Assembly (NCBI GenBank): GCA_903911145.1
Contig: CAIWCD010000036.1
Span: forward strand, 1 to 52,025
Length of the DNA stretch: 52,025 nucleotides
Source of the DNA: an uncultured delta proteobacterium
GTDB taxonomy: Bacteria > Myxococcota > Myxococcia > Myxococcales > 40CM-4-68-19
Direction of reading: 5' to 3'
Shown: positions 24,220 to 27,096 of the stretch, piece by piece
How positions within the stretch are numbered: the first letter of the stretch is position 1
How the letters are laid out: the number at the start of each line of letters is the position of its first letter
The notes under the pieces: model-generated
The model's input: the letters and a program-made list of their open reading frames with translations, nothing else
Told to the model about the DNA's origin: nothing
Database searches by the model: none
Position numbers and translations under genes: made by a program

Positions 24220-24900
24220 ATGGGCACCGCATCACGCAAGAGCTCGATGGCAGGCACGATCGCGTTCACGATGCTCTGCGCCGCGCTGGTGGCGGCCTGC
24301 GAGCATGGTCGCGGCGGCTTTTCGCACGCGTCGAGTTCGTGGGGACACGCAAGCGGGTGGGGCAGTTCGTCGAGCGCGACGCACAATCCGGTGAGCGCGC
24401 CGCCCGTCGCGCACAGCGTCTCGACCAGCGCCCCCACGCCGCCTCGCAGCGGGAACAGCTCCTCTGGTTCGCGCGCACCGACCGCGCAGCCGATCGTTTC
24501 GTCCCTGCCGCCTCCTGCGCCGAGGAACACTCCACGCGCGCCGTTGGGCATGCGGCCCGTCACGCTCGGCGTTCATCCCCTCGCGCCGGTTGGACGGATC
24601 GAACACCAGCCGAATGAGGTTGAGCGCTTTGTCGTGCGGTTCATCGATGCGTCGACCGACCTGCTCGTCGCGGCCAGCGAGAGCGCGGCGATGTCCGACG
24701 CGGAGGATGAGGCGTTCGATGAACCACTGCCCGTCGAAGCGTTCGCGGTGGGGCCGGCCGACGGGGCTGTGCTCTTCGGTGCCGATCTCGATCCGCAGAT
24801 CTGCGAAGACCTCGCGCCTGGCGCGACGCACATCCCGCGCGGCTGCTCGGCGCAGTCGCTCAGGGCATCTGAAAGTGGCGCCGCAGGATCGATTCGGTGA
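24220..24900 (+). CDS. Hypothetical lipoprotein, Ser/Pro-rich
   Basis: I do not recognise this 226-residue protein. It has a lipoprotein signal (AGTIAFTMLCAALVAAC, lipobox LVAAC), a Ser/Gly/His-rich segment, a Ser/Pro/Ala-rich segment (about residues 45-110), and an acidic C-terminal part (FVVRFIDASTDLLVAA, DAEDEAFDEPLPVEAF). ATG 24220 has GGAG five bases upstream. Its 3' end overlaps the convergent mutH gene by 41 bp. Confidence 0.6.
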   Translation: MGTASRKSSMAGTIAFTMLCAALVAACEHGRGGFSHASSSWGHASGWGSSSSATHNPVSAPPVAHSVSTSAPTPPRSGNSSSGSRAPTAQPIVSSLPPPAPRNTPRAPLGMRPVTLGVHPLAPVGRIEHQPNEVERFVVRFIDASTDLLVAASESAAMSDAEDEAFDEPLPVEAFAVGPADGAVLFGADLDPQICEDLAPGATHIPRGCSAQSLRASESGAAGSIR

Positions 24901-25552
24901 ACGCAGTCCGCAGATAGAACGCACGCGGCGCGGCGCGCACGGAGGCTCCATCTTCGTCGAGCGCGCTGCGGAGATCGGCAGCGTTGCGCCCTTTGGGCCG
25001 CAGTTGCAGCACGACGCCGCGGTGCCCGGTGATGCGCGCGAGAAACCCCTCGTCGATCAACTCGACGATCTCTTCGTAGTCGTGGCGAAGCCGGGCAAGC
25101 TCTTCGGGCGACGGACTCCAGAGCAGCGCCGAGCCGCACCGACGCCCTGCGAGCGCAATCGCCGGATCCGCTTCGACGACCACCCACGCCACGCGCGCGA
25201 GCTTCTTGCGCACCGCCGAGTTCTCCCAGCTGCGATCGGGTTTGGCGAGATCGAGCGAGGCCACGAATGTCGACTCGCACGGCCGGCCCATCCGATCGAC
25301 CGGGATCGATTTCAGCTCGATGCCGAGCGCAGGAAAATCAGGCTCCGCGTGCGAGCCGGCGGTCGCGCCCAGCGCGCGCTCGAGCAGCTGCCCGACCCAA
25401 CCCTTGTTCTTCCTCAGATCGGCCGGGCTCTTGATCTGGAGCTGCTCCGCGAGCTCGCCGAGTGTGCGCCCCGCCAAGGCGTCCATGCGCGCGCGCAACT
25501 CCGCTTCATCTCGCGGCGGCAGGCAGCGCGGCATCTGGTGGCGCATCGTCAT
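24860..25552 (-). CDS. mutH: DNA mismatch repair endonuclease MutH
   Basis: The 230-residue product closely resembles E. coli MutH (229 residues) along its whole length. MutH nicks the unmethylated strand at hemimethylated GATC sites when activated by MutS and MutL. The catalytic residues of the E. coli enzyme (Glu56, Asp70, Glu77, Lys79) are all present here two positions later: LLE at 58, PDF with Asp72, and IELKSIP with Glu79 and Lys81. Other family segments are LGELAEQ, KNKGWVG, RCGSALLWSP and RAFYLRTAF. ATG 25552 has AAGG eight bases upstream. It lies 11 bases after the glycosyltransferase gene and is probably cotranscribed with it. mutH is mainly known from gammaproteobacteria, so transfer is likely. 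Confidence 0.93.
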   Translation of the reverse strand: MTMRHQMPRCLPPRDEAELRARMDALAGRTLGELAEQLQIKSPADLRKNKGWVGQLLERALGATAGSHAEPDFPALGIELKSIPVDRMGRPCESTFVASLDLAKPDRSWENSAVRKKLARVAWVVVEADPAIALAGRRCGSALLWSPSPEELARLRHDYEEIVELIDEGFLARITGHRGVVLQLRPKGRNAADLRSALDEDGASVRAAPRAFYLRTAFTESILRRHFQMP

Positions 25553-25563
25553 CGTGCGGGCCT

Positions 25564-27096
25564 TCAGCGCAGGCGGGAGAGAATGCCGATCAGCTGTTCG
25601 GCGCGCTGTCGATAGGTGTGCCGCGACAGCACCGCGCGCATTCCTGCCGCGGCGATCGCCTCGCGTTCCTCCTCGTGCGCCAGATAGTGGCGGGCCTTCT
25701 GAATCAGATCGCGCTCGTCGCAATAGGTGATGATCTCCTCTCCGGGCGTGAGCAGCCGCGCAAGATTCGGCACCTCATTGGTGAGCAGCATCGCGCCGCA
25801 GGCGGGCACTTCGAAGCAGCGATAGTTCACGTCGTCGGCAATGCTGCGATTCAATCCGATGCGATAGGACGCGACGGCGGCGACCATATCGGGACCAATC
25901 GTGTTGATATGCCGTGTAATCGGAATCTCACTCTGCAGACGCGCAAGCCACGCGGCGCGCGACGAGATCATCGAGCCGCAGAATCCGACGTCGTGCAGTC
26001 TGTTGGCATTCGCTGGCGGGCGAACCAGCTCGGCGTCGATCGCGTTGGGAAACCAGTCGCTCCCTCCCACCACATCGCGAAAGGCCGGGAGATACTGCTC
26101 GGCCGAATTGAGCAGATGATCGATGCGCTGCCTGCGGCAGAATTCGATATGCGCAGCGAGCACGCAATGGGAATCAATGCTCCAGAAGAGCTTGCGTCCC
26201 TTGAAGCTCGAGAGATCGGGGTGCCAGCCGCTGTCGTAGTTCTCCAGCGTCAGCACCGCGTCGCAGCCGCGCGAGATCTCCTCGAAGGGGGTCGCGTAAT
26301 TCGGATATCCCAATCCCCAGACGAGAGCCTCGACACCGAGCTCGTTCAGGCTGCGCGCGAGTGAGAGCGCTTCGCGATAGTCGCGGTTGCGCTCGTGGCG
26401 GCCGCGCTCCTGGATGAGCAGCAGCTTGAGCGGGCGCGCGGTTCGCAGAGATTCCGCGAGTTGGCGCTGGTGCAACTCGACCGTCTTCTCCTCTTCATCG
26501 AAGACCTGCCCGACGAACTGCAGCCCCTGCCTCGGTGTCGGGAAGGGCCGATGATCGAAGAATTCGTCGTGCACCAGCGACTGCGCCGCGACGAGCGGAT
26601 GCACGACGCGCGCGAGGAACTGCTGATCGACCTGGTAATGATTACCTCGTTGATATCCGTTGATATTCTCGTTGATATCGCGCAGGAGCGGCGCCTTGAC
26701 GCCCCACATGCCCCCGAGGATCGGCATGTTGTGCTGCGGATGATCGCGCATGATGTGGAACGACTTGTCGCTCGCGAGCCAGGCATCGACGGCAGCCTTC
26801 TCCCGCTCATTGAGCCTTGAATCGCAGTCGCGGCTGAGCATGACGGAGACGTTTTGATCGGCCGCCGCCGAGAAGCGCCAGAACATCCCGCGCCAATCTC
26901 CCGCTTCCTTGTGCTCGATCACCTCGGCGCCGCGGGCGCGCAGACCTTCGACGATCGTGCGCGGCGTGCTCGCTCCAACGGCGAAGCGCGCGGTCCAGCC
27001 GGGATAGATGCGCGCGCATAGCTCCGCATTTCGCAATGCCCCGATCGTGTAGCGAGGATTGTCGCCCCAGAGGCAGAAGCTGATGATCTTGAGCAT
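25564..27096 (-). CDS. Two-domain glycosyltransferase-like protein with CgeB-type C-terminal domain
   Basis: The 510-residue product has two parts. The N-terminal ~210 residues (IISFCLWGDNPRYTIGALRNAELCARIYPGW, then SVMLSRDCDSRLNEREKAAVDAWL) look like a glycosyltransferase-like domain with a DxD-type CDSR site. The C-terminal ~290 residues match the CgeB/glycosyl transferase 1 type (LLLIQERGRHERN, FWSIDSHCVLAAH, FCGSMISSRAAWL, RCFEVPACGAMLLTNEVPNL), seen in spore-maturation CgeB proteins. It is likely involved in surface glycan synthesis. The start ATG 27096 is 31 bases from the divergent DUF1345 gene; mutH follows on the same strand. Confidence 0.75.
   Translation of the reverse strand: MLKIISFCLWGDNPRYTIGALRNAELCARIYPGWTARFAVGASTPRTIVEGLRARGAEVIEHKEAGDWRGMFWRFSAAADQNVSVMLSRDCDSRLNEREKAAVDAWLASDKSFHIMRDHPQHNMPILGGMWGVKAPLLRDINENINGYQRGNHYQVDQQFLARVVHPLVAAQSLVHDEFFDHRPFPTPRQGLQFVGQVFDEEEKTVELHQRQLAESLRTARPLKLLLIQERGRHERNRDYREALSLARSLNELGVEALVWGLGYPNYATPFEEISRGCDAVLTLENYDSGWHPDLSSFKGRKLFWSIDSHCVLAAHIEFCRRQRIDHLLNSAEQYLPAFRDVVGGSDWFPNAIDAELVRPPANANRLHDVGFCGSMISSRAAWLARLQSEIPITRHINTIGPDMVAAVASYRIGLNRSIADDVNYRCFEVPACGAMLLTNEVPNLARLLTPGEEIITYCDERDLIQKARHYLAHEEEREAIAAAGMRAVLSRHTYRQRAEQLIGILSRLR

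Follow-up and report, generated by a model that had tools for sequence, protein, structure and literature searches.

A Myxococcota genome with a canonical MutH of apparently native descent, a Dam-type methylase and endonuclease motifs retained in MutL

In textbooks, MutH is restricted to E. coli-like bacteria. Reviews ascribe methyl-directed mismatch repair to a few gammaproteobacteria only (PMC8744996, PMC3848065). E. coli MutL is without the DQHA(X)2E(X)4E motif, an absence that the literature ties to MutH, and the nuclease motif of MutL is said to be missing only in some MutH-using gammaproteobacteria (PMC3848065, PMC8744996). A literature search, with subscription papers outside its scope, returned no description of MutH in Myxococcota and none of MutL nuclease decay outside the gammaproteobacteria. 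The Myxococcota MutH clade and the MutL decay reported here are probably new to the literature.

The DNA analysed (the window, 52,025 nucleotides) was the complete contig C36 of a draft genome, G000, of 5.30 Mb, 99% completeness and 53 contigs. The mutH gene was read on the minus strand at 24860..25552, with an ATG at 25552 and a stop codon at 24860-24862, and encodes 230 aa. The protein scored 264 bits against the NCBIfam MutH equivalog NF003458 (cut-off 243) and 87 bits against Pfam MutH PF02976 (cut-off 23); with TIGR02248 it reached 224.6, slightly below that model's own cut-off of 229.9. It matched the E. coli MutH structure 1azo in the PDB with E=8e-62, and pairwise alignment with E. coli K-12 MutH (229 aa) gave 48.2% identity and 63% similarity over 226 aa. 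As a sequence match the score is well past chance level.

The PD-(D/E)XK catalytic stretch was assigned from alignment columns to 25310..25381 (minus strand), where E58, D72, E79 and K81 correspond to E. coli E56, D70, E77 and K79 with identical spacing. The four catalytic residues at E. coli spacing and the length of 230 against 229 aa, both remarked on in the first-pass annotation, were thus borne out by the alignment and by the reading of the frame. From the alignment and the codons, the DNA-contact residues R185-P186-K187 (24992..25000, minus strand) were equated with E. coli R184-P185-K186, and Y213 (24914..24916, minus strand) with E. coli Y212, which we take to be the residue that reads GATC and its methyl group. 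The counterparts of E. coli F94 and K48 were likewise conserved in the alignment. Judged by its sequence, the window protein is a canonical MutH nicking endonuclease, and as a protein it is ordinary.

The partner genes, for which a genome search had been suggested in the first-pass annotation, were all found. A Dam-type methylase lies at C48:163499-164410 (TIGR00571, 261 bits, over the cut-off), MutL at C14:232416-234362 (487 bits) and MutS on C5 (877 bits). The methylase is 37% identical to E. coli Dam and carries the FNGL-R-N-x-x-G-x-FNVPFG segment of GATC enzymes. Its gene is solitary, unpaired with a restriction enzyme, and has a bamA-like gene on one side and a lolD-like ABC gene on the other; in blast searches one or both of these neighbours stood beside dam in 6 of the 9 family relatives with visible flanks. 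GATC occurs in the window once per 110 bp (474 observed, 426-513 expected), with no avoidance. With its canonical MutH residues and length, a Dam-type methylase unpaired with a nuclease gene, MutS1, MutL and dense GATC in the window, G000 shares the components of the E. coli system, and by gene content the Dam/MutHLS-like set is genetically complete. The differences are that G000 belongs to another phylum, whose MutH proteins form a separate clade, and that its mutH lies behind a glycosyltransferase gene.

Three further observations were made on the methylases. A second, divergent D12-class adenine methyltransferase of G000 (L003, G000:C16:1-2846; TIGR00571 72 bits, below the cut-off) lies close to an integrase-like ORF at the end of a contig and probably derives from a mobile element. 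Dam over the cut-off was not found in several MutH-bearing relatives (G152, G180, G189-G195, G202 and G203); G152 (L087, L030) is a closed genome of 4,350,553 bp with MutH and no Dam-family match. G168 (L182, L223/L229), which bears MutH and has lost the MutL nuclease site, encodes two full-length Dam-type methylases.

In the proposed mechanism, GATC would be methylated by the solitary Dam-type enzyme, and the new strand would be transiently unmethylated after replication. A mismatch would be found by MutS, which would recruit MutL; MutH, once activated by MutL, would nick whichever strand is unmethylated at a hemimethylated GATC close by, and excision would thereby be directed to the new strand. 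The genes, their catalytic and recognition residues, the MutH clade, the dense GATC and the confinement of MutL nuclease-site loss to MutH-bearing relatives were observed; the GATC specificity of Dam, the methylation, the MutL-MutH contact and the nicking are inferred.

MutL is where G000 departs from E. coli. The metal-site motifs DQHAxxE, ACH and CxHGRP, missing from E. coli MutL, are retained in G000 as DQHAAHERMNYQ, ACHASVRA and CAHGRP. The first-pass annotation had raised the question of a MutH-responsive MutL but had not foreseen this retained site. A MutL without the endonuclease motif is a trait of the E. coli-type system, and since the motifs are present here G000 was filed as a variant, perhaps E. 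coli-like in its working, rather than as a standard member. In its DQHA(X)2E-type site, and in a QPLLVP segment that resembles the beta-clamp motif, G000 MutL is like that of MutH-less repair in Bacillus subtilis, Neisseria and Pseudomonas, to which G000 adds a complete MutH as well as a Dam-type methylase. The MutL proteins of the family of G000 (f1) differ from those of MutH-less repair in having Q in place of the final E of DQHA(X)2E(X)4E and CAHGRP for CPHGRP, in members with and without MutH; the metal site still has its D, H, E, C and C/H. All f1 members in which the C-terminus was seen, those with MutH and those without alike, keep DQHAAHER, ACH and CAHGRP. MutH, Dam and an active MutL nuclease therefore probably coexist in f1, and two potential nicking enzymes, MutH and MutL, are probably still present in the G000 lineage. 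From these motifs, the family is best read as being in a dual-nuclease or intermediate state.

Because the f1 MutL site is intact regardless of MutH, MutH may be dispensable there. This leads to an alternative in which MutH is intact but marginal, repair depends on the MutL endonuclease, and MutH and Dam are a dispensable leftover vanishing from the family. The intact metal site in every f1 member with a visible C-terminus fits this account, as does the distribution of MutH, which is found in 4 of the 12 f1 genomes and is missing from 8, some of them nearly complete (G012, 97%; G014, 100%). Against it, the active-site and recognition residues are fully kept in 4/4 f1 copies even though the other copies differ from that of the window by 36-40%, which points to purifying selection and to a MutH still in use, and Dam over the cut-off is kept in 11/12 f1 genomes. 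We consider the marginal role unlikely and favour a MutH that takes part in repair.

The MutL proteins of 73 genomes of the phylum were aligned, and three truncated MutLs were excluded from the counts. A site was scored as lost when any of the metal-site motifs (DxHA..E, ACH/ACQ, CxHG) was gone, a criterion chosen with the alignment in view, which weakens the count. Of the 23 genomes with MutH, 12 had lost the endonuclease site; of the 47 lacking MutH, none had (Fisher p=1.3e-7, kinship ignored). Mapped on a MutL ATPase-domain tree, these losses amounted to at least 6-7 independent events, all on MutH-bearing lineages; the probability of such clustering by chance was ~0.002-0.01 by branch length, with 40-47% of the tree length bearing MutH. 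A sister-pair test of MutH against MutL loss gave ~2.4 agreeing, 0 opposing and 5.6 uninformative pairs and was not significant, with few informative pairs. The C-terminal dimerisation domain scored over its cut-off in 9 of 10 checked site-lost MutLs, as expected if the nuclease alone had been dispensed with. In these alignments the MutL decay of the phylum parallels the gammaproteobacterial pattern, and it is unexpected and probably new.

Two MutL variants of the alignment are recorded separately. The MutL of G152 was tried as a site-lost case and dropped; it is degenerate (DLHACRERIAW, ACQ, CLHGKP) but likely keeps the metal ligands, and it was counted as kept. In G055 and G121 (L089, L102), of a Myxococcaceae-like large-genome family without MutH and without Dam over the cut-off, D[AP]HAALERAR and C[SI]HGTVVV replace DQHAxxER and CPHGRP.

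Directly upstream of mutH, on the same strand, lies a glycosyltransferase-like gene (PF13524) at 25564..27096 (minus strand). Its stop codon is separated from the mutH start by 11 bp and is overlapped by GAAGG, a possible mutH ribosome-binding site; the two genes are probably co-transcribed, an arrangement that does not imply a functional link. A search for a shared mutH neighbourhood within family f1 gave none. Methyltransferase-like ORFs were found beside MutH at 0 of 24 phylum loci, most of them viewed with flanks of only 1.5 kb, which gives no sign of a restriction cassette, and such a cassette was rejected on this ground.

These flanks also bear on whether the window protein could be a GATC restriction enzyme, or another DNA-processing enzyme of the Sau3AI/MutH fold, with no part in mismatch repair. 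It shares the fold superfamily and the catalytic residues with Sau3AI and other PD-(D/E)XK GATC endonucleases, and a weak similarity to Sau3AI was detected (E=1.4e-5) at 64 bits against a family cut-off of 300. However, it is a single-domain protein of 230 aa, without the second domain of Sau3AI (~475-509 aa), it has no partner methylase at its own locus, and GATC is undepleted in the window. Its MutH equivalog score and the tracking of MutH by MutL nuclease decay across the phylum also speak for MutH, and we regard a Sau3AI-type function as very unlikely.

The distribution and descent of MutH were examined, first by a census of matches over the Pfam cut-off. It placed MutH in 6 of the 145 genomes from the order and in 25 of the 195 from the phylum, across ~14 families. 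A maximum likelihood tree was built from 91 sequences. Besides all 25 phylum MutH, these included 48 MutH drawn from 229 sampled genomes of the class to which Methylophaga belongs, ten named gammaproteobacterial loci, the E. coli protein and distant MutH-like proteins (Bdellovibrionota and others). All 25 phylum sequences formed one clade (93/92; 94% of bootstrap trees) apart from gammaproteobacterial MutH. Within it the order follows families: the four f1 sequences group together (100/96), joined by f7 (99/91) and then f9 (94/71), both of the same order, and the MutH of f26-f31 and of f21/f23/f25 likewise fall in clades. A constraint that put gammaproteobacterial MutH in one clade could not be rejected by the AU test (p=0.67), and the constrained tree had a higher likelihood than the unconstrained one. 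The two groups look like separate old clades in a tree whose root is unresolved. One very ancient exchange of MutH between Myxococcota and gammaproteobacteria may have taken place, in either direction. About twelve MutH state changes are required on the MutL tree, so vertical descent requires many losses to be accepted.

The first-pass annotation had held that MutH in a member of this phylum implies transfer. Recent acquisition of mutH from a gammaproteobacterium by horizontal transfer would be in keeping with its patchy presence and with the identity of the window protein to gammaproteobacterial MutH (~48-56%), which is comparable to that among members of the phylum. The tree instead recovered a deep native clade, the very outcome that the first-pass annotation had named as refuting its view. 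The clade spans ~14 families; in it the f1 copies are nested with f7 and f9, and gammaproteobacterial MutH fits one separate clade, for which the constrained tree scored higher. The implied transfer was therefore abandoned; the clade test offers it no rescue, and a recent acquisition is highly improbable.

The first-pass annotation had also taken the genome to be non-gammaproteobacterial, and in this it was right. The partial 16S of G000 is 73% identical to that of E. coli across the first 550 bases, and the genome looks like Myxococcales. G000 is firmly placed outside the gammaproteobacteria, and we infer that it belongs to Myxococcota, order Myxococcales, family f1. That the contig was binned from another organism is scarcely credible and was rejected, since, draft in 53 contigs though G000 is, its estimated contamination is 0.24%, the closest MutH relatives are in three other f1 genomes and the contig GC of 65.7% agrees with the 65-67% of other contigs of the genome.

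We consider it likely that the window encodes a true MutH, whose gene has come down within Myxococcota from an early ancestor with many losses along the way, and which acts here in Dam-directed mismatch repair. G000 is best read as a native methyl-directed mismatch-repair branch in a dual-nuclease state, its function being predicted from its genes. A broader reading, which we advance with reserve as somewhat less than probable, is that Myxococcota hold a second native Dam/MutH repair lineage in which the MutL nuclease was repeatedly lost only where MutH was kept, f1 being an intermediate with MutH and a competent MutL in one pathway. Myxococcota, as another phylum in which MutH forms a clade of its own and the MutL nuclease has decayed repeatedly, would be a natural replicate of the gammaproteobacterial step, and f1 would offer living intermediates in the shift of strand choice from nicking by MutL to GATC-directed nicking by MutH. 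Strand-sorting repair of this kind may not be peculiar to E. coli, and G000 may show it at a halfway stage.

Among the distant relatives, single-domain MutH-like proteins of Bdellovibrionota and others (L014-L018, L022) were 27-34% identical and kept the catalytic residues but carried V or L at the K186 position; they look like an undescribed sister family. In MutH-like proteins of Candidatus Poribacteria (L019, L020) the D-E-K catalytic positions aligned as N-K-C, and these proteins are possibly inactive or misaligned.
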